Source: Apostichopus japonicus (Eukaryota; Echinodermata; Holothuroidea; Aspidochirotida; Stichopodidae). Taken from it: DNA of 64,000 bases. The stretch's first letter is position 1. Every line of letters starts with the position of its first letter. Positions 9,140 to 52,171 of the stretch are shown here, in pieces. The DNA lies in assembly GCF_037975245.1 (NCBI RefSeq), contig NC_092578.1:8540001-8604000 (forward strand), written 5' to 3'. The position numbers were made by a program, and so were the translations under genes. Under the pieces are notes generated by a model that saw only the letters and a list, made by a program, of their open reading frames with translations, ran no database searches and had not been told where the DNA came from.

Positions 9140-12100
9140 ATGGACGGAATAGCAAAGATTATTCTGGTATTCTTTGCTATCTTTAACTATTGTCTGGTTC
9201 CAGTTGCTGCATGTTGCCCCAAATGCCCGGTAAAGGGTACAATGGAACTAACTGACGATCAAAGAGACCTTATCGCTAATCCAGCCTCACAAGCAGAAAT
9301 TGCAAGGTAAGGCAGTATCATAAACCGCTAGTAAAATTAGCAGGAAAAGAGAAGATGAATGTGTGTTTGGGGCGGGGGGAAGAGGGGAGGGGTTGGTACG
9401 ACTCTAGCTAGCAACCCCCCCCCCCCCCCAATATGAAATAGAAGAAGATTGTAACCAGTGTACCTCTATTATCGTCGGTTTTATCTCTATTATTGACAAC
9501 TAATGGATGAAATCAAGAGAGCTTGTTGTGAAACTAAAGACTAGATTTAGAAGGAGCATTAGGATCAGTTGCATTATTTTTCTACATTTTAAATTTAACA
9601 TGTTAAGTTTACTTCGAAATATGGCAAACGTAAAAGTATCAACATTTGTTTTTGTTCCCTCGGTGGCTGTATAAAATAGGTAGCTATATAACTGTATTAA
9701 CTACATTTTGTCAGTGGCGTCCATACACGACGAGCCGGTGGGTGGGGGTGGGTGGGCGGGGGAGTGGGAGAAGTTTAGCCGGGCAATGTTTTAAAATGCA
9801 ATAGTATTTATTGGCACAACATTGCATGTAGACATCATTATAGGTTTATCTTATAGCCGAAGTCTGCCTCACAATGCACTTTCTAACGTCTAACCTTTTA
9901 TTTACTGAGTCCGCTCCAACGACCTCTTGCAGAACCATCCCATTTGCCCCGCTGCTGCTACCTGTTAATATATCATTTAAGGTATATTTCGACATTTTGT
10001 TTTAAGATAGATAGACAGCAATATTAACTTGATACTTGGCATGCGCGGATTCAGGGGTGTTGAGGTATGCTTCTCCCTCCCCACCCCGCTCCATTTTGAA
10101 CCACACACCAAAAATAAAAAGTATATATTTTCACAACCTTGCGTTGACCATATCTCGTCTAAATTTCTTCTTTGATCGGGGGGGGGGGGAGGGGGGCATA
10201 GCTCCTCCTAACACGACCCGCACGCGAATATTTTATTGCCAAACAGGTTTGCAATTACAGATTGCTCGTTACGTCAGCACCAATAATGACCATCGCTTGG
10301 AAGTTCGAAGACATACACTGAATAACACACTGACACTTAACTAAGTCTAGTTGAGTGCTTTCCCTGCAAACGCCCTAACTTAACTGTTAATGCTTGGATC
10401 ACATGGACCTTAATGATGATGCATATGCTACATTCCATTGGGTTCGTGTTTTCTAAGATTCGTGAGCCGTTCTATTGAAATTGGAATTCGTTTCGTGGAA
10501 TGGGTACGTTAAATCAACTTCACGACGCGAGTTCACGCGTCTTCAATGAATATATGCAAAGTATATAGTCTGCAGCATGATACATTTCCGTCACTGCACT
10601 GTTAACACAGTTATTATACATATAGGCCTAAATCACATGTTTGATGCACCCTTTACGAAACTTTCACTGTGCGATGTAAGCGATTAATGCCTTCTCCGAA
10701 AACTTCGACCAAACATCGATAGTAGATCATACATTCATAACAAACTAGTGTGCTAAATGTGATGATGACGTAACTTTTCCGGCCAATCACGAGCGACTAT
10801 TTACACACGATTGCAAACCTGTTTGGGAAAAAAAATCGCGACTCGCACTGCTTGAAACTTACCAGAAGTCTCTATGGGAAGCTGGTCACTTCGCCCAACA
10901 ACCATTTCGCCCGACTGCCATTTCGCCCAACCTTACCATTTCGCCCAACCAGCCTGGTCATTTCGCCCAACCAGCCTGGTCATTTCGCCCAACCAGCCTG
11001 GTCATTTCGCCCAACCTTGATTAAATATTATACTTCAAAAAGGAAACGTTCGGGAATTTATAACGTTACAGGATACGAACCGAATATTAAGGAAACTTGA
11101 GGATGGATCAGTGTTATAGGGGTTAGGTTTGATAGGTTTGATATAGTAAACGTTGGGGAGTTGTTAACGTTACCACTTGAAATGCCGCACCAGGGGCGAG
11201 AGAGGTGGCATGGGATGGATATATTTGTGTTTACCAAACTTACTGTAACATCAATTAAATTTATCTAATAACATTATTGAATCTTGTTCATAATGAATAT
11301 TAACGATTGTTATTAATCTAATTGGTGAGAACTTCTATAACACATCACATTTTCTTCATCGTTTACTTTTTTTTCATCCCATTTAGGTTACAGCAATTGA
11401 GTTTTGTAGATATAACACAGGAAACCGATCCCATTGTGGAATTTACGAACGACCAAGATGAGACGGTGATTGAGGAATTCCCGGAATACTTCAGAACATG
11501 TTCGAATGGAAATAGAATAGAGAATAACACACTTGATCCTGATATAGAATGCGAACCTGCACTCCCTCCTTTGCAGAATGAGAGGACAATCCAGCCGTTT
11601 AGAAAAAAGCGAAGTTCGGTTTCAATGTGTACTGCAAGTACTATTGCAACATGCACGCCTGTACAATCTTACGTACAAGCTATCTTCGCCTTTGATTTTC
11701 AAGGCAGAGTCGTTCAACTCTTCCAGGTGGGTAACTTATTCACATCTTATACTTAACCCCCCCCCCCACTTCTCCACCCCCTCTCTCTCTCCAATACTTG
11801 TCTCGTTGAACCTGTTTCTTTTATATATTTCTTAATTGTGATATAAATGTTGAGTAATCTATGGTCGGTATTTTCATGATTATTACAGGATTTCAGTTAA
11901 TATTGATGATCTCTAACTTTTTTTCAATTTGGGAAATGTTTCTATAGAAAAACCGGCATCTTCTTTCCCTTAGAGATGTCACATCGCTTAAAAGTGTGGA
12001 TATCACTAGAATTTATGTTTGGAAATGCAAATATAAGGAATTATTGGATTTTTCTTTAAAGGGGACACAAATCGATTCATTATATCTTTGGCATATAATG

Positions 12101-13584
12101 TGAAAAACACCTACCCCAAACAAGTTTAATTGGAAGTCGTGTGCGGACGTTGTCATTTTCTATATTCTGTGATATCACAGCTACATTAGGATCTTAAAAT
12201 ATTTTATTTTTACTTTCTGCTTGCGTTTCTTTTCATATTTTCAATGTAGAATCAACAGATAACAGTGTTGACGCTGAAACTAATGCTATCTTTAGGTCAT
12301 GTTAAGAGCTTCAAAACATTTAGATTCATCATTCACAAAACTCGTCATCATTACGGTAAAATAAAGGTTGCAAAGTTGCAATTAATCAAGAACAGAAGAA
12401 GACATTTAATCACATTTGGCTCGAGGACGTCATATTTAGACTTGATCAAGCCTCCAGCCGTGATATCTCTCAAATGGAAAATATCTTTCTTAGCTGTAAT
12501 TGGGAAGTTGTTAATGACAGCTTAACCATTATGGTTGGGTCTGTGTCTCCCTTTAGAAGAAGTGAACTTCAATAATCATGTTCATAAATCAGATAGTTAT
12601 ATTTTACTTTAATATTATTGGTCTTTCTGGGGATGTTTTTAAACGCCAGAAATTTGGCGATAATGATTAGTGAAGAAAATGTCAACACACATGTGAGTTG
12701 CCTATATCATCGCAAGATAACTTTGAGAAACAATTGCTTATGGGCCACATAAAAATTTGAAACTAAACATAACACTTGACCTTTTACTCAGTGAGCTTTG
12801 GCCTATTACCCCTCCCCAGTTACGGACTTCTCTTCAGAAGCATTAACTATTACCATGGCAACCGTTGCTACAGTAAGTGAGATTTCCGCGATAGGATCAT
12901 CTGACCGACGAACTACAATATTTCATCCTCTCTATACAGGAGCAATGAGAAAATAAATGTTAAGATAATTAGCTTCTTGTTTCAAGTGACGTTACACAGG
13001 ATAGCGATGGTAGCAAGTTACTCTGCTAACTTGTTCGGTCACCTAATTCAAGAAAGGAAAAAAAGGTGGCAGGACAAAGAAATACGGACAATCAGAACAC
13101 TAAATACTGATCTAATCTATTCGATGAATGATATTGTCGGTTTTATACCTACTGCATATAATACTCCCCAATAGATAAATTTGCGAAACTGATGACAAGT
13201 TTGATCTGTTCAACATCATGTGTAGGCCTATGCTCGATTACGTACCATGTTCATCCTTTTGTTTCCTGAAATGTTGACCTATACTGTTGGCATTCTATAT
13301 ACATAAATGCACCATATATCGTCTAACCGTCTTTATCATGCCTCTTTCTTTCACTGTTTTTTCTTCTTATCTTTTTATCTTCTCTACCGACACAGCCCAA
13401 TGGTATGTTCCAAATTACCATAGAAGAGACGTGCAGTAGCTCTTCTTCAGTTACAGGTACACCTTGTTGCGAGAGAGTTCGTTATGTATCAGCTGTTGTG
13501 GTTACTTTTACTCCATCTGTAGATATTAAAGTAATTGACATTCAAATATCATGTTGCACCGCGACACAATCACCACAGCCGTAA
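9140..13584 (+). CDS. Secreted cystine-knot-like ligand precursor, copy A (3 exons)
   Basis: Coding exons are 9140-9306, 11387-11726 and 13396-13584 (with stop), giving 231 residues. Splice sites are GTAAGG/TTTAG (phase 2) and GTGGGT/CACAG (phase 0). Residues 1-24 form a hydrophobic signal peptide. The pro-region (25-131) is acidic, has Cys at 25, 26, 29, 94 and 111, and an NNT glycosylation sequon near 102. RKKR at 128-131 is a furin-type site. The mature part (132-231) has seven Cys (137, 145, 182, 193, 194, 222, 223) in a C..C..ETC..CC..SCC order. Signal, pro-domain, dibasic cleavage and an odd-Cys C-terminal domain ending in SCC match the neurotrophin/Spaetzle cystine-knot plan; that class is inference from cysteine order and sheet-like spacing, not from clear sequence identity. 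An IL-17-like ligand is the main alternative. The copy at 32545-38467 is its duplicate. Confidence 0.82.
10880..11017 (+). repeat. 22-bp minisatellite in intron 1, copy A
   Basis: Tandem units of CATTTCGCCCAACCAGCCTGGT occur, with shorter degenerate units on the left (CATTTCGCCCGACTGC, CATTTCGCCCAACCTTAC). The array is within intron 1 of the secreted-protein gene and is preserved at about 35685-35815. Confidence 0.9.
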
Positions 13585-13599
13585 CTTTTGTACACCGAT

Positions 13600-16500
13600 G
13601 GCTAAATTTCAAATAACATATATATTGAAATTTTTACTAACATCACATATTAAAGGGTTCACATTTTTTGAATTTCAACTTTTCGGAGCTTAAAACATAT
13701 ACGTTTATGGGTGTCATTTTTCGGCGACTGTAGTATTCTAGGAAAATTTAAACAAAAAGATATCGATGTTTTGTTTAAGCAACCATATTTTTACAATTTA
13801 AATCAGTACTCTTACTTCAAGTTAAATATGATTATATGTAACTTAAAACTTAAAAATGATTTTGCATAAAGCTTTTAATAATTTTGTAGATATTTTCATG
13901 TTAATTAACAAATATTAGAAAATCAAGCATTTTGTTTCTTAATTTTAAATATAATCTATTTTTGAAAAAGATTAGGTCATTTCACACACCCTTTATAAAG
14001 TCTTTCTTATAAAGGGCTAATATCCAATGTGAGTTGCCCAAAATTACATGCATTTTTTATTGAAACTTTTCCACTTATGCGTTTTGGAGGTGACGTTAAC
14101 ATATTACATTTGTTTCGGAGGTGACAAAAATGTTTACAAGTTGTTATAAAAGCTTTCTTGCTAATAAAGAAGAAGTAAACACTTAATCTCAATGTATATT
14201 CATAACATCTTTAATCAAACACTGATTTAAATAAAAACATTTATGCCAAGTAGCAGAGAAAATACGTCAACGATACGTACAACTAGTGAAGCAAGCGAAT
14301 GAATACAGAACACAGAATACAATATGTTTATGTCATAAAAGATAGGTAACTGTCAGGTAAAGAAAGTGTGGTCATTTGAAAAGCAATTTTAAACATTGGG
14401 TTGAAGTCTCTTACTGAAGCACTCATATTGCAAATGATTATCTCACATAAAACATATTGTATACCTTCAGTCTCTTTTGTTTCGGAGGTGACGCTAAACG
14501 TTTACACAACCCATAAGGCTTGATTCATGCTCAAACACACAGACCTTACCTTGGAAAGTATGAAAAATATTAGTAGGATATGTTGATAATATTTTAATGA
14601 CATTAATGATCCTGGGACCATGACTGCTTTTGCTGCCATTCGTGATAACTTGGAGACAATACTGTATCCGTTCAATATCATTTGGTTAAAATTCACACTA
14701 TTTCGGCTAATTACATATGAAATATTATACCAATTGAAGAAATGATTAATGGCTAAATTAGTCATTCTGACGGCTAGTTACAGTATCATTTATATATGTT
14801 GGTCACACTTTTTGCAGTGAAACTTACTGCCACATTCCTGTAACCTTATACAAATTTGTAGAGGACATTCAGTCTAATATTCTGGAGAAAACACATCCTT
14901 AAGATGACCTACCACAGTCTATCGAAGTTTCAGTGAAAAGTTAGGTAACACTTGTCAAAAATTGACTAAAATGATTTGCTCACATTCCTGTCTAAAAACA
15001 TTTAACAGCAACTTAATTGGCTACTATGGCCTTGTTCACACTTAAGAATGCACATTTACTTCAAGTCCACAAGGGTTATTAATTCCCTTAGTGTTAACAT
15101 TCCCTTACTCATACTACAAGTCCGCGTGCAGTCTTAAGAATAATCCTCCTTTCTGGGGCTGCATTCAATCGCTCTTGAATTCTTAATCGGAGTGAAGACT
15201 CGGCAAAAAGAAACGTCTGATGCCGGTAATGTTAGTTTCGAATAAGATGTAACAGAGGTGTTAGAACCCACCATCGATCCCAGAAAATACACACACATGT
15301 TGCTACGGTCGGTAATTAGACACTAGTGTACAGTCAATACATGCAGCTACGGTCAATACCCACAACACAGTGTACATAGCAGCGACGGACATCTCAGCAG
15401 GGAGTTGTTATGGAACTCCCTGATCTCAGATCCAGATAAAAGGTAACAAGGTATCACGTTTTCAGTACTGTCTGCATTTTGTAGCGACAAGAAGAAACTT
15501 CACTTGCAAGCAACGGAAAGTTAACTTTTTTTCAGAAAGTTAACTTTTTTCGCAGGGCGGCACGCGGTTTGGGGCGAGTCTTCAATGCCTCTAATAAATG
15601 AAATGTGAACAGTCACGGACTTAATGGTGACCCGAGATTTCCGGTTCAGTTATGAAATATCCGATCTATCAAGTTGCAATTGGGCAGGTAGTACGTACAT
15701 GTATGTGTTTGTCAGACCATTGCCCTTCTTAACAGAAACACTACCAAATGATGCTATTCGTGAACCCAGTTTATTTTCTTTGAACCGATTTGACCAACAC
15801 TGCAGAAAAGCCGCGGTTACGGTTGTGAGACAACAAAAAACTGAATGACAGTCAACTTAAATCTAATATAACCTTAGATAAGTTATGCGCCATACTGACA
15901 GATGTTTGAAGAGCCCAAACTCGGCAATTTTATGGTTTCAAACGGATGATTTTGGGTTCGGTTGCTACGGAAGTTAGTAAAAGGTTTAAACCATTACGTC
16001 TGGCCTGGCCTATAATAAAGTTGCATTATCCTACTGTATACAATATACCTTACTAGGTCTTTAGACCTAACATTAAATGCCTTCAATGTTGGATTAGCCT
16101 CAAATGCGACACCATACAGTAAAACACTGACTAGCAAGATCGTTCGCTCATCCACTTGAAGGGTTTGGAAGAAATTCAAATCTGGGTTAACATGTTATGG
16201 TAATGCCAGTAAGGAATGGTTTGAATACCGTATACTGTTTATGTGCGATGATTGAACGTTGCCGTGTAGTGGTGTTTGGAGCAGTACGTACTAGTACAGC
16301 ACATCAGACAATGGCAAAGCACAGGTGGAATGTAAACAGCTGATATGGCCTTTTCACGCCTGAGCAGTATATATTAATTTCGCAAGCGGATGAAACTTAC
16401 TCGTTCTGAAATGTGAATGCGTCTTGTTCTAAACTAGTTGATCCTCCTCTCGGCCTTAATATCAATAATCGCCCAGGTTGCGTTAACAAGGCCTAAGAGA

Positions 16501-17424
16501 CCATCTGGAGCAACAAACTTGAGTTAAATGAGAGTTCACTCTATAAAGGTTAGTTGTTTGTAATTGGTTGTTAAGAAAAGAGAGAGGAATTCCCCTTTCA
16601 AATTTTATATATTTTTGGGAAATCTCTATTCAGATAATTTTTTGTGATAAACAACAGATCATTAAAGGAGCAATAAGATACTTTGTTATCTCTGCAAATG
16701 TTACAGAAGCAGGTCTATATTTTGCAAACAATGATATTCTGAACTTTTGTAAGATATTTACCTGGACCAATTTGTAATTTTGGGAATGATGCAAAATTGT
16801 GTGTACTGGTACAGTTCAACATGGTGCAAAATTAAATCCGTGAACATGTACCCAATAGCTTTGTAGAACTTACAGGAACAGTTCAGTATATATTTCATGT
16901 AAACAATCAATGTCACCTTCAAAACAATAGTAAAGACCACAGGCAGATTTAGCTAATATCTAATACATTTGTCCCATGTTAATAAAGTTTAAAAAAACTG
17001 CATATTTAGTGATTGTGATCTTTTTTGGTCATGTCTTCACAACTTTTACTCAAATATTACGGGTGGAGTGTGATATTTTTTAATAAGTTCAATATGGCTA
17101 TACTATTGTTTACATAAAACTCCAGCTGAAGAATGCTTTGTTTCGGAGGTGTTAACGGAAAAGTTAACATTATATTTGAAATTTACGCAAATTAGTTAAG
17201 AATTCCAAATGAAAAATATTTTAGGGCCCAGATATTAGACACATTAGTTATTGTAATAATGCAACCTTACTTAACAAAGTTTACACTGATTAACTAGAAC
17301 TTAGTTGCAGTCAAACTTAGGTACTAATTGTTCAAACGGAAAATGTCACCTCCGAAACGACAAAATCTAGCAACCGGTCATTGGAGAAGAAAAGGAAGGA
17401 AACCTGGAGAACACAGTTGCATAT
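13600..17424. repeat. 3' flank with dispersed TGTTTCGGAGGTGAC motifs, unit A
   Basis: No gene is seen in this region. The 15-mer TGTTTCGGAGGTGAC or a close variant occurs at 14081-14094, 14111-14125, 14478-14492 and 17139-17151 on the plus strand and at 17345-17358 on the minus strand. Several are followed by a GTTAAC-like phrase. The inverted copy at the far end suggests a degraded element bounded by these motifs, but no terminal repeats or target duplication could be fixed. Positions 15793-16518 are missing from unit B. Confidence 0.6.
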
Positions 17425-19275
17425 CAGGCGCGTATCCAGGATTTTCTAACCCGGGGGCGCGAATTACTATCTAAGCGGAGCGCCACCATCGGTTTGCGCG
17501 CAGCGTACATGAAAATTTCTGGTTTTGATACCCCCCAGATCACCGGAAATGACACTTCTCGGGCTTGAAAATGACCAACCTGATGTACACTTTTGCCTGA
17601 GAACCAAGTATTTCCCAATAGTTTTTTTCCCCCCATCCATAACCTTTTTGAAGATTGTCACCAGTCACACATCATGTTCGACCTCATCGCATCTCCTGTG
17701 GACCATTGCTTTTTGTAGTGGATTCTACGTCGCGGCCCACAATACCCGACAGCCCCACTTTTGAAGGTTTTAAGCCCATTTTTTGTTCAGAATTGCAAAA
17801 TTCACATTTCTCGTGATTAAACTCACTTCAAGACATACCCATAATGTTGCAAAAATTTTCATCTATGGACAACCAATATAGAAAAACCTCTTTGAACCCC
17901 TAACAGACTGGTCAAAATTGCACGAGTAGAGGGAAGTATGATGAAGAATGTTGGTCAGGAAATTTTCGAAAATTCAGACACAGTTAATTTATTGGTGTAC
18001 AAATATTGAAACCTCCTATAACGGCTATTATAAAACTTCGTTGAAGGAAATGAAAAAAATACCAGATATTTCCGAAACCGAACACTACACACATAGGTCA
18101 AGGAGGCGGGGCGGGGGGGGGGGGGCCTAACGAAATATTTCTTTCCGAAAATTCGGGCAATAGGCCTATGCTGAGAATTTTTCGGGCACCTATACTGAAA
18201 GGAAAATACATTGCAATGATGTAGCTAAAGGAAATGAATAGTTTAAAAATTATCTCCTTGGTAATTAAAATAAAGTTCTAAGCTTGGCCGACTAATTCGC
18301 CATTACTAATGTAAAAGAGAGTTTTGACATACTTGGACCTCCATGCTTTTTCTACATCTTCATAGGACAATTCGTTGTTTATATGAGCATCCCGCGGTAT
18401 ACTTCAGTGACCGTACGGTACATGATGGCATGTGATGTAATAACCGATGCTTGCTTATATGATATTGACTTTGACATGTTGAAAATGTTGGTTATATTTT
18501 TCTGGCAAGTCGTTACAGCTCCCCAAATCAAATTGGGCTCCTTCGTCTATGACTACACATAGACAGTTTTGAGGCTGTTCATCCATAGGTTGGCGCGAAG
18601 CGCACAAAAAAATTTTGCCTTCCAGATCGCTGGAAATGGCACTACCCAGGACCATTTGTTAGCGCGAAGCGTACAAGCAAATTTTGGCCGAAAATGTCTC
18701 CCAGATCGCTGGAAATGACACTTCCCAGGCCTTGTAAGTTGCCTCTAAGCACTTTCTATTTTGAAATTACTTAGCGATATCATTTAAAAAATGCTGAATG
18801 GGGGGGGGGGGGGGCGGGCGGTCGCCCCCATCCCAAAATGTTCCCCGACGACACGGTCGAGTTCGAGACCAGCCACAGTTGGTTTCATAGCACAATTCTA
18901 CACACGCGTTATGATAGACCATATATAGTATATATATAGATCATTAGTGAGAGAGGAAAATGGAAACGTCAAAAAATGGAGTTGTCGGTGTAGGGGTAAG
19001 GTGAGTCACACTTTTACGAAATCATTGATCCGTCACTGTTTACCCTTCAGCGCTGTAATGATGTCACTGTTCCTCTTTCTCTTCCCGGTGTCTTCGCGTT
19101 TTGCTTTTACTCCCTCTTTTTCTCCTTTTTCTCTCTTTCTTCTTTTTCTTTTCCCTTCCTTCCTCTCCTTCTCCTTTTTCCCCCTCTTTTTTCCTTTTCT
19201 CTTCTCTTTTTTTCTCTTCTCTTTTTCTTACCCGGGGGGCGCGCGCCCCCAACGCCCCCCCTGGATACGCACCTG
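17425..19275 (+). mobile_element. Long non-autonomous transposon, left copy (L)
   Basis: It begins CAGGCGCGTATCCAGG and ends with the inverted CCTGGATACGCACCTG. Its whole 1.85 kb is repeated, inverted, at 19846-22033. Shared landmarks are the GCGGAGCGCCACCA module (17470-17565), the ATTTCCGAAACCGAACACTA phrase (18067-18090), the AAAAGAGAGTTTTGACATA phrase (about 18311) and a 170-base polypyrimidine tract (19050-19228). No transposase is encoded; frames rich in Phe/Ser/Leu in the pyrimidine tract are low-complexity artefacts. The ends resemble hAT ends, but the flanks show only GCATAT rather than a clean 8-bp duplication. Confidence 0.8.
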
Positions 19276-19545
<270 letters not shown>

Positions 19546-19845
19546 TGGTCCTTCTCACAACCAGTGGTGTAACTTCAATATTGGCACTGATTGCTTTGTA
19601 ACTCAGTAACCAAATACCAAAAATTTGCCATTTGACCATCCTAAATGAAGTCTATCTTAGGTAGCATAACGAACTTTCTCGGTTTCTTCAGGGTGGATTT
19701 GCTGGCCTTAGATATGCTTAAAATATGCTAGTTCAGTCGTACACTCTCAACTACACTCTTTTTGTCAGAGCCTGTACTCTTTGGTTGAAGCTATTTTCCA
19801 GTTCTTATTTGGTTGATATTATGAACAAGTGTCCAAGCTAATATG
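19546..19845 (-). other. Segment inverted relative to unit B
   Basis: The last 55 or so bases (about 19791-19845, ending CCAAGCTAATATG) are the reverse complement of the sequence that follows TTGCATAT in unit B (about 41692-41740: CATATTAGCTTGAACACTTG onward). This piece should therefore follow 17424 directly, in the other orientation. The rest of the segment has no recognised feature. Confidence 0.82.
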
Positions 19846-22485: not shown

Positions 22486-22867
22486 CAGTGGCGGAGCCTC
22501 CATACAGTCAGGGGTTGGGCGGATGCCCCCCCCCCCTGATGGACTCAAATGGACTGCTGGCGCCCTTTTCAGCTCTTTACCACTTTTTAATTATTCTAGA
22601 TTATTGACTTTTTTATTGCGCTCTCATCTACTTATTGACATTTGTCACATTTTGTTGGTGTAATTTGACGATGACACCTATTTATTCTGCGTTTATCTGC
22701 AAATTAGCCAGGCCCGGAAAGGTTCATTTCCGGCGATCTAGGGAGTATGTTTACTCAAAATGTTTCTGTACGCTACGCGCCAACCAGTGGTGGCGCTCCG
22801 CTTAGATGGTGTCGAAAGCGCCCCTACAGACCATTCTAGCCCATCCTTACCATTACCCCTAGCTCCT
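22486..22867 (+). mobile_element. hAT-type MITE, right end truncated (copy 2 of 4)
   Basis: It starts CAGTGGCGGAGCC and follows the 20970-21347 sequence to CCCCTAGCTCC. The final GCCACTG of the terminal repeat is lost, and no matching target duplication remains. Confidence 0.85.
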
Positions 22868-25546: not shown

Positions 25547-26834
25547 AGAACTTGACACGCACACATTTTGTGGTTAAATTTGCTCAATTGTTCGTTGCAT
25601 ATGCACAGAACAATAAATACTTTGAGATCATTACATTTCTGAGGAACCACACAAATGAAAAACATACAGTTGATTGATTTAGATTTTCCCTTAATAGAAA
25701 TTGTTGATCAAATTCTTAAGTGCGTCAATTATGAGCCCACCATGCTACTAGGCCGATACGTGGGCCAGAGTTTTTTTTTCTCTTCAAAACGAGGCCGAGG
25801 GATAGCTGGCTAGGCCTTTGTCCTCCAATTAAGTTAACTTAACTAAATGCTAGTATTTCCTGGGCCATATTGATCACATTTGTATAAATAAATTAGTTTT
25901 TCGTCCTAACTTTTCAGAAAAAGTCAGGGTGCAGGCAATTATTAATAATAATTAGTGCGACCAGTAGGAGATTTTCTGTGGTAAAAATTTGGCTAAATTG
26001 GTTGTTCAAATTTGAAAATTAAAAAGAGAAAAGAAAATTGACCCAGTGGGCAAAAGGATGCAAGCAGGACAAGAAACTACTAATTTATACCTCGCCTTAA
26101 TATTTCAAGTGTCGATTTTTATTGGGGCTCACAATATTCATAAATTTTTGGTTTAAGTGCAGAATGTACCGTCTGCAAAAATTCCACAAAACTTGTACAG
26201 TAGGCGTATCTGTAGGCCAGAGACTATGTGATTAGAAAGACAAGATTTTGACATGTAAAAATATGTCTCTTCCTTCTATCATTTTCTTTTTCAGGTATAA
26301 ATGAATTGAACGATTAAACTGTTTTGTCTTAAAGGGGCCTATGCTAAGTCTATGTTTGCATTTATCCAAAATATTAAAACCATAATGAACTTTCGATGAC
26401 TTTTTGGTTTGGTAGTTGTGTGGCATAATAAAAATTGTTTGGTAATTTTGCATTGATATATTTTATATATTTCATCACTTTGCTGACTGACTCGTGGTAT
26501 TCATGTATCATTGTCAGGAAATGAAAAACCCCATTTCCATTTAGAATGGGGTTATGGAGGGTGAAGTAGTTCTTCGAAAAAACATTTTTGGCCCAAAGTG
26601 TGTCATTTGGGTATCAAAACTGGTTGTAACTTTCTCCACAATAACCACATACAACCATGTAGATTTTAAGACTCTATCTGCTTACATTGAAAAACATAAA
26701 AAAATCACTATTTGACGAAGTTGCAACAATGTTTTTAATGAGTTCTGCACTCCCTTTATTGTTTATTGACAATGTTTATATTCAAATTTATGTTATTTTG
26801 TTTAACTGCTTGGTTTTTGTTGTTGTTATTTCAG

Positions 26835-28975
26835 AGAATGAGATAGACAATGTTGCATTGTCCTTGTTGGATGTGAAGGTACTAGAGCTCATACCAAAGA
26901 TTGGCTCAAGGATGAATTTTTTGAAGGGTTGGCGACAGAAGGTACTTTAAAGAAACTAAATGGGATATACATGTTTCAAGTGTCTCAGGGTTGTAGATGG
27001 CAACATAATATAAGGACTTATTTCGTTCTCTTGAAACATGCCCATGGCATTAATGCTCAACATAAGTGAAATATTATTTGTAGTCAGGGAAACTGTAAAT
27101 TACAATTTGGAACATGCTATGGTTACAAAAAGCATCTGCTCACAAAACATTGTTTGCCATCTGAATAAACAGTAAATGAACACAATGTTCAAAATATGAA
27201 CTTCAACAATTGGTGATATCAAAGATAGAGCTCTTCAAAATGACAAAAGTAATGACCTTACTGGAATTTTCATCGTGAGATTGAAAGCCTCAAATATACC
27301 ATCATCACTTGTGCAGACCTTTATTTGTGACACACAAGTATTGATAGGCAATTTTGTTGATGATGTGGAGAAACAGATATCATACATTTATAGTGATGAA
27401 TGTTCTTACCTAGAAAAAGAAGAAGTTAATAACCCATTTTATGTGCCAAAGAATTACAAAACCTATGAACCTATTTAAATTTGGCCTCGTTCCTATTACA
27501 GGTACTCTGCTCCAATTTATGTGCATGCAATGCGCTTTTGAGAAACGTTGCATGTTCTTAAGTAATACACACTAACTGGAACAGGGAAAAGGAGATAAGT
27601 AACAGGGAAACTAGATGAAAAGCTGTGGATGGCACTATTAAACCTTTGTTAAGAAAAATGACCCATAAAACTTAAGTACCTAACTACAAGCACTGGTAAT
27701 GTGATATGCTCTAATTCACATATCAAAAGAAGAACCTTGCATTCTTCATGCTCCCAATAATATTACGAGGTGTGAAGGGTAAAAGGGGCCATAGCTCGGC
27801 ACTGCAATCCATGAAAAGCTTCATCACTGTTCAGCCGGTAAGTAGTTTATTCAAAAAGGTAAACTTTGTTGGAATCATGCATGAATCAATGAATTTTGTG
27901 ATCTTAATTTGGAATTGCTTCATGATCTGATTCCCATTGCAAATTAGGAATATTTAATTTGACAGAGATCTTATGTTATTTGTGTTTCCCTTCTCATGAC
28001 CAACTTTTAAGAAACTTCTCCAGTTATGGGGTCTTTTGCGAAACTAAAAACTGTACACATTATCCTTTTTTGAAAGGGGAATAAAGAGACACAACAATTA
28101 AATCATAGTTTTTCAACACTGGGGTCATTGAGAATTATTTTCCTGGGTGTGGGGGGGGGTAGTGTGAGGGCAGATTGGTAAGCAGGGTTGCCAGCCATCC
28201 TGGAAAACGGGAGCAGAACCTTGAAAATTAGTTTACCTTTTTCCAGTCAGGGAAAGTTAGGGAATTTGAGGAGTTCTAATCCCAGTCGTGTCATACCAAA
28301 CCTGTTAGGCATGTTGATGTGTCGCTTGACCTTCACTGCTTGATCACTGCACAGTCTAAGTATTTGGTTGAGGAAAAACAAGTAAGATTACTTTAATGTA
28401 TGAATATTCAAAGTTGCTACATGAAATTACTACTAAAATGTCATCATGACTAAAATTTTATTCTGAATCTGTTTAAAGTTACAAGATCAATTATTTTATG
28501 AATGTGTACTTACGGCTACTATGAGAGAAAATATCTCGTGCTTCATGTGACGGAAATTCCACGTTCACATAATTTGTTTACTCTGGAATCTGGTCAGAGA
28601 TGCTGTTAGCATGTGTGAACTCAGCAGTCAGCAATTAAATTACTTTCTTGTCCTGTCTAACTAAGGTTAGTACGACTTAGTACGAAGGTGTCACGGTCAT
28701 ATTCTGCATTGCATTTGTTTTTATTTGAAATTTCCCTGTCACAGTTAGGAATAAATTACAATCACAGTCAGGAATAAATGGTACCTTTTCTTTTATTACT
28801 GTAGGAGGATGTTGACATAGAAGAATACGCAAGGACTATCGATGTGGACATGACGCCACAGCCCTTTGCAGTGTGCAGCGGCACCCTCCTAACACCATCC
28901 CATGCATATGCTATTCTCAAGAGACATGCTCTGCCACAACCATCCCTACTCAAAGCAGTAGATGTTAGCTTTTAA
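26835..28975 (+). pseudogene. Remnant of uncharacterised SAM-like-domain gene, unit B
   Basis: Four exon-like pieces fit one gene on the plus strand. (1) 26835-26941, acceptor TTATTTCAG, reads ENEIDNVALSLLDVKVLELI and PKIGSRMNFLKGWRQK, a SAM-like helix pattern. (2) About 27262-27478 reads LKASNIPSSLVQTFICDTQV and ends in a stop. (3) About 27748-27837, donor GTAAGT, reads LPIILRGVKGKRGHSSALQS then MKSFITVQP. (4) 28805-28975, acceptor CTGTAG, reads EDVDIEEYARTIDVDMTPQP and stops at VDVSF. The (3)-(4) junction is in phase. The order SAM-like segment, RGVKGKRG block, TPQPFAVC block is what I know from large uncharacterised metazoan proteins. Missing connecting exons, an in-frame stop in (2) and truncation of (4) make a working gene unlikely. 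Function is unknown. Confidence 0.55.
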
Positions 28976-30299
28976 GGGTGTGAAGACTCGCGCAAAAAGA
29001 AACGTCTAATGACGGCAATCTTACCTAGTCTCTGTACTAGTTTTTGTACCTTACATTTTTTTTACTTCTTTGCATGTTATCATTTTTCAGAAACATGCAC
29101 TGACTTTATGTGAAACTTGTGAAAATTCATCTTATCATTTTTTTTCGATAACGTGTACACATTGATGTTATTTTGATCCTGCTTATGACAGAGTTGAGGG
29201 TCTTTTTTAAGACAAATGTACAGATCTGACTATTCTTGAGAATGGAAGCAGGCAATCAAAAATATACACTATAACTACTAGGGATAGAGTTGAAACAGTT
29301 TTGTGATTGCCATACTTTTTCATGCTGGATGCAATGTTTTACATTAAAATAAGTTTCAACTTTGGTTAGTGATTCATATTTGATATGTGTGAAAATTACT
29401 AGGTGCCTGTCAGCCTATTAAATATACAATCTTCGATATGTTTACAATGTGCATTGGCTTGAAGAATAAGGAAAACCTGCACCACCATTTTCTGTAAATT
29501 TCATATCATTATACTTACAAATTGTGCTCAAATTACAATTAATTAAGACATTAAAGACATATGAGAGGTTTGTATGTGTGATACCATGTGTGTTCCATTC
29601 AAGTCAGTTTGCATTGCATAGGTAATATGTTTAAAAAAGAAGAATATGTGTAGCTGCACAAGACTGCTTATGTTGGAATTTAACCATTGGCATATCATAA
29701 GTAGTAGGCTTACTCCCTTTGTAACATTGAGCCATTTTTTGCACTACTAGTTTTATCTATAATAATTATCATGATATAATTATAAGGACTTGCCATTTCC
29801 TGTTGGACTTCTTGCTTCTGTGCTCAAACTTCTTGAGTGTCTAGTGAAAACAATCACCTATAACTGCATAAAAGGCTGTAAACAACACTTGTTACAAATT
29901 GGTCAGTGGGCAAGAACCAAACAAAGTTGTGTATGTTCAGGTTAATTTTATCCATGAAGAGAATAAATTGTAGTTTCGTGATGAACTTTATACGTCAATA
30001 TTCATGTTCCAAGTCCTAAAGCAAATTTGCAAAGCATACATTGAGGGTTGGATTTTTCATGATGAACATATTGACGCAATATGATATAAAGTAAGTTAAT
30101 AGATTACTGCAACCAACAATACCATGTTGCTAAATTCTATGAAACCATTTTATGTGTTGTTAGTTCTAGTGAAACTTTTTGAAGCTGTTTTTCATCAATA
30201 AAATGAGATTTAATACTATTTTATGTGTTAATATTTTTAAACCCTAGTGTCAACATTTTCGATTTAATATTGTAAAACACTGTCCATTTAATTTCATTC
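28976..30299. other. Duplicated non-coding DNA, no gene seen
   Basis: This is the counterpart of 5464-6655 with only scattered differences. The phrase GTGAAGACTCGCGCAAAAAG at about 28979 marks the breakpoint where the truncated exon ends. Confidence 0.65.
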
Positions 30300-30665
30300 A
30301 TAGACCAATATTGGGTAACAAATTGCCCAACTAACTGTATCAATCAACCAACATGGGATAAAAGCACTCCAATATAATTAGATTCATTAACCAATATTGG
30401 ATATCAAATTGCCCAACTAATTGTAACAATCAACCAACATTGAGTAAAAACACTCCAATACAATTTTATTCATTAACCAATCTTGGGCAACAAATTGCCC
30501 AACTAACTATATGGACTAACCAATAATGCATGGGTATATAATTTTCCCAACTACGTGGTAAATGCATTACCCAACTGCAACGTTGGGCAAACTTTGCCCA
30601 ACTTTTGAGCGGTTACATATGTATCCAGTGTTGGTTAAAATTGGTCAATATTTTTAACCAACTTT
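30300..30665 (+). repeat. 86-bp tandem array with TTGGG/CCCAA palindromes, unit B
   Basis: The same units as at 6655-6990, with one extra piece (CATGGGTATATAATTTTCCC) near 30529. Each unit contains TTGGGYAACAAATTGCCCAA. Confidence 0.85.
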
Positions 30666-31967
30666 TTAATAGTGAACGAAGATATTTTTTAGGGCCCCCG
30701 GTATTCTGGTGGATCACTGAGCCAATACAGCAATTTATGCCACAATGCCACAATCATATTCGCCCTTGGTATTACTGATGAATATTGCAGCGAAATAGTA
30801 CAGTTCGATATATCGTGCATGAGCGAATACACAACTTAACAAAGGCCGTAGGTGTGAGTTTTTGAGAGTCGAAGAAGGTTTGTACTATTACAATTAAAAG
30901 CCAATATTTGATTACCAGTCTTGGGGAAAGCAAGGGAGTTTTCATTACGTCAGGTGTGAAACGCTCAACCAATCAAAATCGACTCGCCGCTTTAGAATAT
31001 TGATATAATGTTATATTTTATAGCAGTTTTCTTATCATTTTGTCAAACACACTCTTTACGCCTGTTCGTCAAGAAGCTTGCATACCGGTACACAAGACAA
31101 CTCGAGGTTTGGTAGGTAAAGTTTAATACGTTCACGTATATAGGCATATATAGCAGTCATCATTACAGCGACAGACAATGTTTGTCCCTTGGGCCTTAAC
31201 CGGTTTTCATTAATCATATGAAAATGCAGTATAACAGTGGACTGTAAAGGTGTGAAGGAAGCATTAAAACTACTATGGGAAAGGGTTTAGATGATAGGCC
31301 CAAATCTATTGCGTAGTATTATGTGCAGTAACTATTTAACATAAAATGCAGTAAGTAATAAAGTGCAGTTTCAAATGTGCAGTAACTATTTAACATCTTT
31401 CGAAGGGAACCTTGAAACTTCTCTGAACGTATCACACTGTGATAATCTCAATGTTACGGGGACTGGCCTAGAGAGTGCAGGATCGACTCTGTTTGCTTTT
31501 CCTTGCCCAAGGTCGTTTCTTTTCAGGAAGTATCTAAAGTGCAGTGTATGATATCCATATAGCACACGGTATCTACAAACTTAAGCACACGCAGTCCTGA
31601 GACTGTATAAGTTACGGTATATGATATATCATGTATCACCCACGTATTAGACCCACCCGTGTTGTAGGATGTGTTTGAAATGAAGAGCTGTAAAACAAGA
31701 TTTAAGCGGGTATTCGTTTATAGTCTTCTTCCTCGTTGTAGACACACGCACACAGCGATTTCCAGATCGTAGACTAAAATCAGTTTTTGGGAGATATCAC
31801 AGGTTTAATGTCTCGTCATACATGCAAGATGAAAGACTTAATTAAGTTTAAATATAACATCATCAAGCTACATGTGCTTCAATCTCTTATGTTTTCCTTT
31901 ATTTATTTGTATAATGTTGATATCGAAGCTGGATACAAGACATAACGATAGCTTTAGTTTCACGGTC

Positions 31968-32272
31968 CAGGGGCGTCGGAAGCTATTTGGGATTGGTACG
32001 GCAGATCAGAGTGTGGCCATCCCATCGGGGGGGGGGGTAGGTCAAACTACGCTACGCGCTACCATGGTTGGCGCGTAGCGAAATGTAGAAAATTTTGAAA
32101 AAAATGCCTCCCAGATTGTAGGAAATGCCACCTCCCGAGCTTGAAAACAAGAACCCTGCCATGCCAGATTAGTCACATTTAGCCTACTTGCTTGTTTCAT
32201 TTTGGTTCTTTATTTTTTGCCATTTTATTTTCTTAGTTCTACTTTTTTCCTTCTTTTTTTTTTGGCCGTGAA
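31968..32272 (+). mobile_element. Insertion specific to unit B, hAT-like left end
   Basis: Unit A reads CACGGTCATAACATCAG without interruption at about 8879. Unit B is interrupted after CACGGTC by CAGGGGCGTCGGAAGC, and the shared sequence resumes near 32278. It contains the shared module (about 32045-32135, GCGCGCTACCATGGTTGGCG type). The right end is T-rich and lacks a clear terminal repeat, so the boundary is approximate. Confidence 0.7.
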
Positions 32273-32544
32273 TATTGGTCACAACATTAGTTAACAATTA
32301 GATTTTAAGATATCGAGATGTCGAAATCTGAATATCTCATTATATCTAACCATCCATATGTTGAGAAATGAAGATACAATACATGGTCTTAAGAACTGAC
32401 AGTTTATACGAAATTTTCTGTTTTGCCGTAATCTAAATATCTCACAGGCACCTTATAATCTCCGTAGTGAACTGTAGTGTTTGGTTTAACCTATTGTATA
32501 TATTTTTCTTTCGTGAATCAGTTTTATTTTCGCAGATCATCACA

Positions 32545-35500
32545 ATGGACGGATTAGCAAAGATTGTTCTGGTATTCTTTGCTATCTTTAGCTATTGTCT
32601 GGTTCCAGTTGCTGCATATTGCCCCAAATGCCCGGATACGTTGAAACTAACTGACGAGCAAATATACATGATCAATACTCCAAAAGCAAGAGCAGAAATT
32701 GCGAGGTAAGACAGTATCATGATACGATAGTAAAATTAACAGGATTGAAGAGAAGATGAAATGTGTCTGGGGGCGGGGGTGTGAAGTGGGAGGGGATTGG
32801 TACGACTCTAGCTAGCAACGACCTCTTGCAGAACCACCCATTTCCCCCCGCTGCTACCTGTTAATATTTCATTTAAGGTATACTTCGACATTTTGTTTTA
32901 AGATAGATTGACATGCAGCAATATTAACTTGATGCTTGACAGGTGCGGATTCAGAGGTGTTGAGGTCCCAGCAAAAATGTAACCTAATTTTACCGAGGTA
33001 AACTATTGTTAATGTGTGGTAAATAGGGTAAATGTCTGGTAACATTGTGTTAAAATCAACTGCGGTACATTTACCGCAGTTTTACCATGTTATTACCGCG
33101 GTAAAAGTATGGTAAAAGTGCGGTACATTTACTACGGTAAATTTACCACTGCAGGTTTACCATGGTATTACCGCGGTAAAAGTAGGGTAAAAGTGTGGTA
33201 CATTTACTACGGTAAATTTACCATAGTTTTACCATGATATTACTGGAGTAAAAGTAGGGTAAGTTTATATGGTACATAAACTACATAGGTGAAAATCCTA
33301 CAATTGTGCCATGATTAACCACAGTAAAAATAGGGTAAAACCATACAGTGCAATTATACTACGGTAAGTGTACCATAATTGTACCATGATTTTACCACAG
33401 TAGAACATATGTGATCACACTATGAAACATGATGGTACATTTACAGCAATTTTTCCATGATTTTGTCCCATATTTTTGCAATACTGATATGACAAACCTT
33501 TTTTTCTACTCATTTCTTCATGTTGGCAATATAAATTACCTGTGGATATGAGTTAAAGAAGAGAGACAAACTGCCATTCTTATATGTTATAGTATGCATC
33601 TCTTTTCCTAAAAAAACAAGCAGAGGATAGAAACATAGAGAATTCCTTCATGGGATCCCTGATATATTTGAGAGGAGACATCAATTATTTTTTTTTTTCA
33701 TTATTAGGGACAACCTAAAAGCCTTTAAAATGACACAAAGAACTATAAACTAGCACACATAAGGCAAAGCGTGGTAAAATATAGTAAATTGAGGTAAAAC
33801 TAAGGAAAAAGCGTGGTAAATATACGGTAAAATTGGGGTAAAAGAACGGTAAAACTGTGGTAAATTTGGGGTAAAAGTGTAGTAAAAGTATGGTAACACC
33901 GTGGTAAATTTGGGGTAAAAGTGAGTTAAAACCATGATAAATTTGTGGTAATTTACTGCGGTAAACCGCGGTTTACCGCGTCCATAGGGCCAAAACACCG
34001 CGGTAATGTACAACATATTTACCGCGTTTTTACCCCGGTTTTACCGAGGTAAAAGTGTGGTATGTTACCGAGGTAAATTTGAGGTAATTTTTTTCCTGGG
34101 GTATGCTTCTCCCTCCCCACCCCCGCTCCATTCAAGTTTGAACCACACACCAAAAATAAAAAGTATATATTTTCACAACCTTGCGTTGACTATATCTCGT
34201 CTTAATTTCTTCTTTGATCGGGGGGGGGGAGGGGGGCATAGCTCCTCCTTACACGACCCGCACGCGAATATTTTATTACCAAACAGGTTTGCTATTACAG
34301 ATTGCTCGTTACGTCAGCACCAATAATGACCATCGCTTGGAAGACATACACTGCATAACACACTGAAGTCTAGTAAAGTGGTTTCCCTGCAAACGCCCTA
34401 ACTTAACTTGTAATGCTTGGATCATATGGACCTTAATTATGATGCATAATCTACATTCCTTTGGGTTCGTGTTTACGTTTTCTAAGATTCGTGAGCCGTT
34501 CTATTGAAATTGGAATCCGTTTCGTGGAATGGGAAGCCTACGTTAACTCAACTTCACGACGCGAGTTCACGAATCTTCAATGAATATACGCAAAGTATAT
34601 AGTCTGCAGTATGTACATTTCCGTCACTGCACTATTTACACAGTTATTATACATATAGGCCTAAATCAAATGTATGATGCAACCTTTACGAAACTTTCAC
34701 TGTGCGATGTTATCGCTCAATGTCTTCTCAGAAAACTTCGATCAAACATCGATAGTAGATCATACAATCATAACAAACAAGTGTACTAAATGTGATGATG
34801 ACGTAACTTTTCCGGCCAATCATGAGCGACTATTTACACACGCAAGGGCGGCGGAACCGGGGGGGCACAGGGGGCACGTGCCCCCCCACTTTTCCTCAGG
34901 TTAAAAATGTGCCCTTTTTCTACATAAAAATTTCTAAATAAATAAAGAGATTACAAAGCGAAACCCACGTCGAATGAAATATTTCGGTGAGTTTTAAATG
35001 TTTACTACCACAGGAGTAGGAGCCCAATTTGATTTGGGGGGGGGGGGGGCTGTAACGACTTGCCCGAAAAATATTAGCAAAATTTTTCGCAAGCTACGCG
35101 CGCGTTCAACATCTTAATGTGCATATCATATAGGCATGCGTTGGTTATTACATCGCATGCCAATAACATACAATCATTTGCCGTGTTATAACCCTTCCAA
35201 ATTGGTTAGAATTATTGGCAAAGTCGTTACAATAATAATGATCATAATAATATCAGTTTAACCATTGAAAAACACAGAAAATTATTTTTCTTTCAGTATT
35301 TTGACATATTTCATTTGCTTTCATGCATGTATCGATCGCGTGTGCAGGGACTTGGACTTTATAATGATTTTCCAATTTCCCAATTTGCACATTAGATATT
35401 GCAGTGCTAGTATGCATTGTTTACTTGAGGGGGGGGGGGGGTGGCGTTGATGGAGTGATGTGTATACGCAAATAAGATAATACAATAAGAGTTATTAAGG

Positions 35501-38467
35501 GTACTAAATATCAGGCTGCATCGGTCCAATCGAATTTTTGCAAAGTGCCCTTCGACGTTGGTGCCCCCCCAGATTAAAAGTGCTTCCGCCGCCCTTGTAC
35601 ACACGATTGCAAACCTGATTGGGAAAAAAAATCGCGACTCGCACTGCTTGAAACTTACCAGAAGTCTCTATGGGAAGCTGGTCACTTCGCCCAACAACCA
35701 TTTCGCCCGACTGCCATTTCGCCTAACCTTACCATTTCGCCCAACCAGCCTGGTCATTTCGCCCAACCAGCCTGGTCATTTCGCCCAACCAGCCTGGTCA
35801 TTTCGCCCAACCTTGATTAAATATTATACTTCAAAAAGGAAACGTTCGGGAATTTATAACGTTACAGGATACGAACCGAATATTAAGGAAACTTGAGGAT
35901 GGATCAGTGTTATAGGGGTTAGGTTTGATAGGTTTGATATAGTAAACGTTGGGGAATAGTTAACGTTACCACTTGAAATGCCGCACCAGGGGCGAGAGAG
36001 GTGGCATGGGATGGATATATTTGTGTTTACCAAACTTACTGTAATATCAATTAAATTTATCTAATAACATTATTGAATCTTGTTCATAATGAATATTAAC
36101 GATTGTTATTAAACTAATTGGTGAGAACTTCTATAACACATCACATTTTCTTCATCGTTTACTTTTTTTTCATCCCATTTAGGTTACAGCAATTGAGTTT
36201 TGTAGATATAACACAGGAAACCAACCCCATTGTTATCTGGACGGAACAACAAGAGGAGACGGTGCTTGAGGAATTCCCGGAATACTTCAGAACATGTTCG
36301 AATGGAAATAAAGAAGAGAATAACACACTTGATCCTGATATAGAATGCGAACCTGCACTCCCTCCTTTGCAGAATGAGAGGACAATCCAGGATGGTGGAC
36401 CAGTTAGAAAAAAGCGAAGTTCGGTTTCAACGTGTACTGCAAGTACTATTGCTATATGCACGCCTGTACAATCTTACGTACAAGCTATCTTCGCCTTTGA
36501 TTTTCAAGGCAGAGTCGTTCAACTCTTCCAGGTGGGTAACTTATTCACATCTTATACTTAACCCCCCCCCCACTTCCCCACCCCCTCTCTCTCTCTCCAA
36601 TACTTGTCTCTTTGAACCTGTTTCTCTTATATATTTCTTAATAGTGATATAAATGTTGAGTAATCTATGGTCGATATTTTCATGATTCTTACAGGATTTT
36701 AGTTAATATTGATGATCTCTAACTTTTTTTCAATTTGGGAAATGTTTCTATAGAAATACCGGCATCTTCTTTCCCTTAGAGATGTCACATCGCTTAAAAG
36801 TGTGGATATCACTAGAATTTATATTGAGAAATGGAAATATAAGGAATTATTGGATTTTTCTTTAAAGGGGACACAAATCGATTCATTATATCTTTGGCAT
36901 ATATGTGAAAAACACCTACCCAAACAAGTTTGATTGGAAGTCGTGTGCGGACGTTGTCATTTTCTATATTCTGTGATATCACAGCTACATTAGGATCTTA
37001 AAATATTTTATTTTTACTTTCTCCTTGTGTTTCTTTTCATATTTTCAATGTAGAACAGATAACAGTGTTGACAATGAAACTAATGCTATCTTTAGGTCAT
37101 GTTAAGAGCTTCAAAACATTTAGATTCCTCACTCACAAAACTCGTCATCATTACGGTAAAATAAAGGTTGCAAAGTTGCAATTAATCAAGAACAGAAGAA
37201 GATATTGAATCACATTTGGCTCGATGACGTCATATTTAGACTTGATCAAGCCTCCAGCCGTAATATCTCTCAAATGCTGTTTGGGAAGTTGTTAATGACA
37301 GGTTTCTCTATTATATATAGCTTAACCATTATGGTTGGGTCTGTGTCTCCCTTTAGAAGAAATCCCAGGGGTTTTGAGTGAACTTCAATAATCATGTTCA
37401 TAAATCAGATAGTTATATTTAACTTTAATATTATTGGTCTTTCTGGGGTTGTTTTTAATGATTAGTGAAGAAAATGTCAACACACATGTGAGTTGCCTAT
37501 ATCATCGCAAGATAACTTTAAGGAACAATTGCTTATGGGCCACATACAAATTTGAAACCAAACATAACACTTGACCTTTTACGCAGTGAGCTTTGACCTA
37601 TTACCCTTCCCCAGTTACGGACTTCTCTTCAGAAGCATTAACTATTACCATGGCAACCGTTGCTACGGTAACTGAGATTTCCGTGATAGGATCATCTGAC
37701 CGACGAACTACAATATACCATCCTCTCTACAGGAGCAATGAGAAAATAAATGTTAAGATAATTGGCTTCTTGTTTCAAGTGACGTTACACAGGATAGCGA
37801 TGGTAGCAAGTTACTCTGCTAATTTGTTCGGTCACCTAATTCAAGAAAGGAAAAAAAGTGGCAGGACAAAGAAATACGGACAATCAGAACACTAAATCCT
37901 GATCTAATCTATTCGATGAATGATATTGTCGGTTTTATAACTACGCCATGATCCCCCTCCCCACCCCATTAAAAATGCTTTGATCTGTCCAAATATATTT
38001 GCAGTATTAATGGCGCATGCGTAATCAAGTAACATGGTGGAGTAGTCTGTCGGCGCCTACTGCATATGATACTCCCCAATAGATAAATGATGACAAGTTT
38101 GATCTGTTCAACATTATGTGTATACTTGATTTCGTCCCATGTTCATCCTTTTGTTTCCTGAAATGTTGACCTATACTGTTGGCAATCTATATACATACAT
38201 GCACCAATCGTCTAACCGTCTTTATCATGTCTCTATCTTTCACTGTTGTTTTCTTCTTATCTTTTTTTTTCTCCTCTACCGACACAGCCCAATGGTATGT
38301 TCCAAATTATCATAGAAGAGACGTGCAGTAGGTCTCCTTCAGTTACCGGTACACCTTGTTGCGAGAGAGTTCGTTATGCAAAAGCTGTTGTGATTAATTT
38401 AATAGCAGATGATGCACGTATTGAAGTTATTGAAATTCAACTATCATGTTGCACCGCGACACAATGA
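32545..38467 (+). CDS. Secreted cystine-knot-like ligand precursor, copy B (3 exons)
   Basis: Coding exons are 32545-32705, 36183-36531 and 38288-38467 (with stop), giving 229 residues with the same intron phases (2 and 0) as copy A. Residues 1-24 are a signal peptide differing from A at four positions. RKKR is at 129-132, preceded by a DGGPV insertion; the mature part is 97 residues with the same seven Cys in C..C..ETC..CC..SCC order. The NNT sequon is kept. Differences from A cluster in coding DNA: CPDTLKLTDEQIYMINTPKA against CPVKGTMELTDDQRDLIANP, and KAVVINLIADDARIEVIEIQ against SAVVVTFTPSVDIKVIDIQ. Both copies keep intact frames, splice sites, signal and cleavage site, so both are probably functional. 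Intron 1 is enlarged by the 32967-34100 and 34843-35597 insertions. The ligand class is inferred, as for copy A. Confidence 0.82.
32967..34100. mobile_element. Insertion rich in TTTACCGCGGTAAA motifs, intron 1 of copy B
   Basis: Unit A has the uninterrupted site GTTGAGGTATGCTTCTCC at about 10060-10077. In B the sequence between GAGGT and GTATGC is about 1.13 kb. The ends are CCCAGCAAAAATGTAACC and the roughly inverted GAGGTAATTTTTTTCCTGGG. The interior is packed with GGTAAA/TTTACC words in both orientations, including TACCGCGGTA, and a diverged tandem repeat of about 75-80 bp. The target duplication is only two or three bases. No coding capacity is seen, and I cannot assign a superfamily. Confidence 0.8.
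34843..35597. mobile_element. hAT-type non-autonomous element with empty site in unit A
   Basis: The ends are CAAGGGCGGCGGAACCGG and CTTCCGCCGCCCTTG. There is a perfect 8-bp duplication TACACACG (34835-34842; 35598-35605). Unit A holds the single TACACACG at 10802-10809. It is the same family as 449-1102, in reverse. The interior includes the TTGCCCGAAAAATATT phrase and G-runs at about 35036-35049 and 35430-35441. Confidence 0.95.
35685..35815 (+). repeat. 22-bp minisatellite in intron 1, copy B
   Basis: The same CATTTCGCCCAACCAGCCTGGT units and number as at 10880-11017, so the array predates the segmental duplication. Confidence 0.9.
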
Positions 38468-52169: not shown

Positions 52170-52171
52170 GG

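Follow-up and report, generated by a model that had tools for sequence, protein, structure and literature searches.

The window analysed here is a stretch of 64,000 nucleotides from the sea cucumber Apostichopus japonicus (C18:8540001-8604000 of the genome assembly). It carries two genes for secreted precursors, g1 and g2, and these raise the question of which class of ligand their cysteine-rich mature domains belong to. An original prediction had described two intact three-exon genes of a tandem family, with a precursor plan like that of the neurotrophin/Spätzle cystine-knot growth factors. The gene models hold: when reconstructed from the raw sequence, both genes are intact, consist of three exons and encode precursors of 231 (g1) and 229 residues (g2), with the same starts and ends as had been predicted (exons in Table 1). 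The four introns are all of the GT-AG type; in both genes intron 1 interrupts a codon after its second base and intron 2 lies between two codons. The exon junctions are predicted on the basis of these consensus splice sites and of the phase-0 intron that separates Cys I from Cys II and occupies the same site in six genes (g1, g2 and the paralogues g0, C13a, C13b and C13d described below).

The architecture of the precursors is also as had been proposed. Each begins with a signal peptide (judged by eye, as elsewhere in the family) and continues with an acidic pro-region, in which, between residue 25 and the cleavage site, Asp and Glu outnumber Lys and Arg by 21 to 11 in g1 and by 20 to 12 in g2. 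The RKKR site ends at residue 131 (g1) or 132 (g2) and is followed by a mature part with seven cysteines (137, 145, 182, 193, 194, 222 and 223 in g1; 138, 146, 183, 194, 195, 224 and 225 in g2). Chance does not explain this plan, since g1 and g2 are identical at 80% of their protein positions and g0 and the more distant C13 paralogues show it again.

Table 1. Positions of the genes, exons and duplicated segments (ranges without a contig name are window positions).
Feature	Location	Strand	Description
Segmental-duplication unit 1	3739..17427	+	carries g1; self-BLAST
g1 exon 1	9140..9306	+	signal peptide and start of pro-region
g1 exon 2	11387..11726	+	remaining pro-region, RKKR, early mature domain with Cys 137 and Cys I (145)
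g1 exon 3	13396..13584	+	Cys II (182), IV (193), extra 194, CC 222-223, stop
Segmental-duplication unit 2	25628..41697	+	carries g2; self-BLAST
g2 exon 1	32545..32705	+	signal peptide and start of pro-region
g2 exon 2	36183..36531	+	remaining pro-region, RKKR, early mature domain
g2 exon 3	38288..38467	+	Cys II, IV, terminal CC, stop
Broken third copy	46399..47630	+	stretches resembling exons 2 and 3, interrupted by stops and frame breaks
g0	C18:8527398 to about 8530630		upstream of the window; intact
C13a, C13b	contig C13		intact; two coding exons each, not three
C13c	about C13:14932088-14932359		pieces, one with a stop; exon 3 not found
C13d	near C13:14873761	-	both knot exons read; start not seen
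C8 exon	C8:33451199-33451333	-	exon 3 only
Classic neurotrophin	C1:6485324-6485629		Pfam NGF E 1.8e-24; one open frame of 254 aa, KRR site
Spätzle-like gene, C1 cluster	C1:290365-290493	+	
Spätzle-like gene, C1 cluster	C1:295462-295833	-	
Spätzle-like gene, C1 cluster	C1:305313-305630	-	

As judged from self-BLAST, g1 and g2 are tandem duplicates: each lies in one of two units whose blocks are approximately 82-95% identical and separated by inserts. Further along the window there is a broken third copy, whose best tblastn match (E 9.85e-16) falls in its exon-2 part and which has kept the Gln found seven residues ahead of Cys II in the other members. With this copy and the members found outside the window, the tandem family turns out to be larger than originally stated. 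The rest of the window offers a few minor observations. An open frame at 5161-5463, in a duplicated block (4668-7781 / 28311-31450), has no Pfam match; another, on the minus strand at 3186-3629, resembles the end of a hAT-type transposase. The plus-strand interval 52160-61312 holds open frames that we presume to be SMARCAL1-like, with a HARP domain at E 8e-4 (below the cut-off) and an SNF2 domain at E 1e-6. An Rfam scan of the window returned nothing.

Searches of the animal's own genome (671,581,487 bases on 35 contigs, with scoring limited to the best candidates) added at least five members to g1 and g2, namely g0, C13a, C13b, C13d and an isolated exon on C8, so that the family is spread over contigs C18, C13 and C8; the viral and prokaryote sequence collections contained no relative. 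Five of the six members in which it could be read (g0, g1, g2, C13b and C13d) have a furin-type site ahead of the mature part, C13a having none, and in those five the mature domain measures 92-101 residues.

The cysteines of the mature part, which number seven in g1, g2 and g0, six in C13b, five in C13a and four in C13d, are the main guide to the class of the family. Cys I, II, IV and V (145, 182, 193 and 223 in g1) are present in all six members, and the C8 exon shares II, IV and V. The I-II spacing amounts to 37 in all six, a value that the Spätzle chains of Drosophila and Aedes share, compared with 43 in NGF and 33-34 in the Spätzle-like genes on C1. The distance from IV to V, 29-31 residues in six members, is close to that of NGF (28) and Spätzle (31 and 30), with a shorter spacing of 23 in the C8 exon. 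In contrast, II and IV lie 11-13 residues apart in all seven members, a distance that measures 22 in NGF and 21 and 18 in the Spätzle pair. An extra Cys directly before V occurs in five of the seven and is missing in g0 and in C13d, where Cys II stands in an NRC context and the terminal motif is ETC. Lastly, Gln is found at -7 from Cys II in 7/7 members, in 6/6 neurotrophin and Spätzle chains and in the gene C1-1 of the C1 cluster, its place being taken by Lys in C1-2; this Gln belongs to the neurotrophin signature according to PMC2586362.

Two cysteines of the canonical knot are those that the family lacks. Cys VI (V+2) is missing in 7/7 members, where the residue is Ala in six and Gln in the C8 exon, the latter having Cys at V+4 and V+13 instead. 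Cys III is missing in 6/7; g0 has a Cys at II+8, which, in comparison with the III positions of Spätzle (II+7 and II+9) and of the C1 genes (II+7 and II+8), may be Cys III left without its partner VI. As g0 still has a Cys in the II-IV interval, the two cysteines were not lost together in every member. Because VI is absent from all seven members and III from six, the family would not be a canonical member of the neurotrophin/Spätzle group. The reading that we consider probable, with moderate confidence, is that it is a reduced offshoot of that superfamily, made up of secreted ligands in which the knot has gone from three to two intrachain disulfides.

The comparison with known systems makes this clearer. 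With Spätzle (PF16077; Drosophila Spz C-106 and Aedes Spz1C) the family has in common a pro-form with its cleavage site ahead of the knot domain, the Gln at -7, the I-II spacing, the cysteine register (I, II, IV, V) and the extra Cys beside V, the last being a Spätzle feature according to PMC2772990. It differs in the cysteines III and VI that Spätzle possesses and in the shorter II-IV stretch; where Spätzle ends in SCC-x-C, the pair CC is present in five of the seven members and the last Cys in none, the C8 exon having its own four residues after V and not two. Two further traits of Spätzle genes are described in the literature, furin cleavage in Spz2 and Spz5 (PMC9427763) and a characteristic intron inside the knot of Spz, Spz2, Spz3 and Spz5 (PMC8296651). 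The family has a knot intron as well, unlike Drosophila Spz6, which lacks the one found in the other Spz genes. With the neurotrophins (PF00243; NGF, BDNF and NT-3) it shares a signal peptide, a pro-region, a basic cleavage site, a similar length of the mature domain, the Gln at -7 and the register of I, II, IV and V, and it differs from them in the absence of Cys VI and of the RGID motif and in the II-IV distance.

The notion that the genes could simply code for a canonical Spätzle or neurotrophin orthologue, divergent in sequence only, has to be considered in this context. The precursor plan and the cysteine register agree with it, g0 retains a Cys near the III position, and a candidate orthologue exists in Sp-NT2 of the sea urchin, which PMC2772990 describes as a second neurotrophin encoded in several exons; it is, by that description, an echinoderm neurotrophin-like precursor whose coding part, like that of the family, is split. 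Against such orthology stand the loss of VI in all members and of III in six of seven, the lack of a Pfam match in the members scanned, and the fact that the genome already has one classic neurotrophin, a gene without the introns that interrupt the coding part of the family, together with a separate Spätzle-like cluster. We regard canonical orthology as highly improbable, and the reduced offshoot as the better description.

The profile searches that had been suggested against the Pfam neurotrophin, Spaetzle and IL-17 families gave no match above the cut-off in 5/5 members scanned (all but C13d and the C8 exon), no other Pfam family exceeded its cut-off in these five, and NGF (PF00243) produced no match even at E<=10. 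PDB chains, searched by sequence and by profile, offered no credible match to the family. The assignment depends instead on several agreeing tests of weak to moderate strength, which are described below and which suggest a link with neurotrophins and Spätzle.

In an anchor-free MAFFT alignment, five members have their cysteines I, II, IV and V in line with those of NGF, Spätzle and the neurotrophin of the same genome, and a global-style hhalign comparison with NGF reproduces the same register, though not significantly. Anchored blocks of five members, with blocks and anchors picked after the alignment had been seen, gave z scores of 2.95 against neurotrophins and 3.58 against Spätzle, as compared with 3.17 for the accepted neurotrophin-Spätzle pair; for the C13 genes alone against neurotrophins the score was 1.74 (93/2000 shuffles as high). 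A version of the block test with loose spacing was set aside, given that VEGF-A, which like TGF-beta1 and CGA served only as a control, scored equally well in it (z 3.89).

A different approach consisted in choosing four cysteines freely under spacing limits, with 424 admissible decoys. NGF, BDNF, NT-3 and Aedes Spz1C scored above every true decoy, the two decoys that scored higher being the window's own exon 3, while Drosophila Spz was reached by 10/424 decoys (8/422 true decoys) and by 104/2000 shuffles, a result that is weak when taken alone. TGF-beta1 and CGA had no admissible set, and VEGF-A was ordinary (37/424). For the three vertebrate neurotrophins the fourth anchor landed on Cys VI, and in Drosophila Spz it took the dimer Cys; the designation of the family's last Cys as V therefore relies on the MAFFT alignment. 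The decoy pools of this test and of the profile test that follows contained true family or C1 exons.

With a hidden Markov model built from neurotrophins and Spätzle together, g0 scored 16.2 bits (E 0.0029-0.0038), a value attained by 0/1000 shuffles with fixed cysteines and exceeded by five of 6345 decoys, all of them chunks of the Spätzle-like C1 genes of the same genome. For the other five members E values were 2.3-27, and 14-43/1000 of each one's own shuffles scored as high. When the two C1 genes were added to the model, E became 0.0012 for g0, 0.032 for C13d, 0.19 for C13b, 0.27 for C13a, 1.1 for g2 and 10 for g1. Narrower models performed less well: as many as 330/400 (g1) and 277/400 (g2) shuffles scored as high with Spätzle only, 171/400 (g1) and 125/400 (g2) with the C1 pair, and 69/400 with neurotrophins only in the case of C13b. 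Local hhalign placed the family within shuffle range both against Spätzle and against IL-17; its score against neurotrophins (1/200 and 0/200 shuffles as high) was discounted, as it paired positions 11-25 of the family with 76-90 of the neurotrophins, which is the wrong register.

Of the original proposal, therefore, the neurotrophin/Spätzle plan is sustained by the register of I, II, IV and V, the spacing of 37, the Gln at -7, the blocks and the g0 profile score, and the full cystine knot has to be given up, with VI in 0/7 members and III in at most one.

IL-17, which had been named for comparison, provides another possible origin, in that the family might be a divergent branch of these cytokines. 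The IL-17 cytokines possess a reduced cystine knot with two intrachain disulfides, as is proposed for the family, and they too are secreted and multi-copy in this genome, where 21 of 24 matches exceed the cut-off (three of these only when frame neighbours are counted). None of the 24 lies at a family locus, however, and PF06083 matched 0/5 members scanned. The C-x(4)-C motif and the terminal C-x-C of IL-17A are missing from the family, the spacing rule satisfied by neurotrophins leaves IL-17A without an admissible cysteine set, and the comparison of IL-17A with the family stays inside the shuffle range (32/200 full and 16/200 Cys-fixed shuffles as high). As motif, spacing and Pfam test all fail, an IL-17 origin appears quite improbable. 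Separately, four of the genome's IL-17 matches, with equal scores and 8-10 kb apart (C22:21628037-21654627), look like a recent tandem array.

The same genome contains full-knot relatives in the Spätzle-like cluster on C1, which is possibly a weightier finding than the genes of the window. Two of its three genes were read with Cys I-IV and SCC-x-C, and the third as its last exon only; Pfam Spaetzle matches them at E 2.6e-5, 0.0029 and 1.1e-4, all under the curated cut-off (27 bits), the best NGF value being E 1e-4, and C1-2 gave no credible match against the PDB. The motif CSSTSVF of a C1 gene corresponds to CPSTSVY in C13a. In the block test, the shuffles scoring as high for C1-2 were 2/2000 with the C13 genes, 85/2000 with all five members and 688/2000 with the C18 genes, counts which indicate that the bridge between the family and the C1 cluster goes via the C13 branch; for C1-1 they were 25/2000, 29/2000 and 126/2000, respectively.

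The rate at which the C18 genes have changed bears both on their class and on their role. Between g1 and g2, Ka is 0.118 (57.5/526.3 sites), Ks 0.082 (11.5/148.7) and intron divergence 0.045 (102/2259), figures which do not come from a second alignment method that gave lower divergence at the start of intron 1 and in a long stretch of intron 2. The excess of Ka over the introns is marked (P=1e-7), and Ka/Ks is 1.45, a ratio not significantly above 1 (P=0.36; the bootstrap includes 0). Amino-acid change is concentrated in exon 3 from residue 199, that is, in most of the IV-V stretch and the tail (Ka 0.327 over 29 codons), as compared with Ka 0.023 over 38 codons in the exon-2 part of the mature domain. 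Against g1 and g2, g0 has Ka/Ks of 1.10 and 1.17 for the mature part and of 0.85 and 0.97 for the whole; between C13a and C13b synonymous sites are saturated. These observations suggest that the C18 genes are under diversifying selection. Part of the contrast between Ka and introns may be due to gene conversion, because synonymous sites exceed the whole of the noncoding sequence in divergence (P=0.04; P=0.07 against introns) and intron divergence is uneven, from 0.009 to 0.174 by stretch.

Amino-acid change faster than intron change is typical of defence, toxin-like and gamete-recognition genes. This pattern, seen in g1 and g2, together with the weak profile support obtained member by member, is what would be expected of a new family of small secreted Cys-rich proteins whose likeness to growth factors is convergent. 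Convergence would have to account at the same time for the Gln at -7, the I-II spacing of 37, the Cys beside V, the block tests and the intermediate C1 genes, all of which coincide, and for that reason it is considered unlikely. The reduced neurotrophin/Spätzle offshoot is the reading on which the following proposal is based.

According to this proposal, a furin-like protease would cleave the precursor and the product would form a dimer that activates a cell-surface receptor. Disulfides I-IV and II-V would hold a neurotrophin-like beta-hairpin subunit, and the extra Cys before V, in the five of seven members that have it, would serve as the dimer bridge in the manner of Spätzle; PMC9427763 describes a central intermolecular bridge in the Aedes and Drosophila proteins. 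The idea that an odd number of cysteines could serve such a bridge thus gains from the position of the extra Cys, which fits that of the Spätzle dimer bridge. In the C18 genes only, Cys 137 and Cys 194 (g1 numbering) may form a further disulfide, given that both are present in all three of these genes and neither in C13a, C13b or C13d. Contact with the receptor could take place through the fast-changing stretch of exon 3, and the receptor would be of the Toll type if the ligands act like Spätzle and of the Trk/p75 type if they act like neurotrophins.

A role in defence or in another arms race would be in keeping with the tandem duplication and with the fast amino-acid change, which is strongest in exon 3 from residue 199; on the basis of rate of change and copy number, an immune or other use of this kind is favoured over a neural one. 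A broader proposal, which is doubtful at present, is that an echinoderm lineage evolved its own cytokines from Spätzle/neurotrophin ancestors, with the full-knot cluster on C1 and the knot-reduced family on C8, C13 and C18 acting as endogenous ligands of Toll-type receptors; were it true, a deuterostome would possess an axis in the style of Spätzle and Toll. If the proposed fold is right, the genome would show the neurotrophin/Spätzle scaffold losing a knot disulfide and giving rise to a fast-evolving multigene family, and would supply a short list of candidate ligands for echinoderm receptors of the Toll and Trk/p75 types. Among the matches listed in a search of titles and abstracts of the open-access literature, none described ligands of the Spätzle type or with a reduced knot from a sea cucumber.

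On the receptor side, the genome contains 13 matches to the TIR domain, seven of them inside 0.43 Mb on C9, and Toll-type receptors are therefore probably present. Those seven (C9:23380732-23804616), four of which lie in open frames of more than 1000 residues, are probably a Toll-type receptor array. Two last observations concern COX1. On contig C35, translation table 9 (the code of echinoderms and flatworms), compared with table 5 as the alternative, assigns Asn to AAA and Ser to AGA at conserved positions of the protein. Besides C35, C29:14745-31219 also carries pieces of COX1, which may be a copy in the nucleus or a second fragment of mitochondrial DNA.
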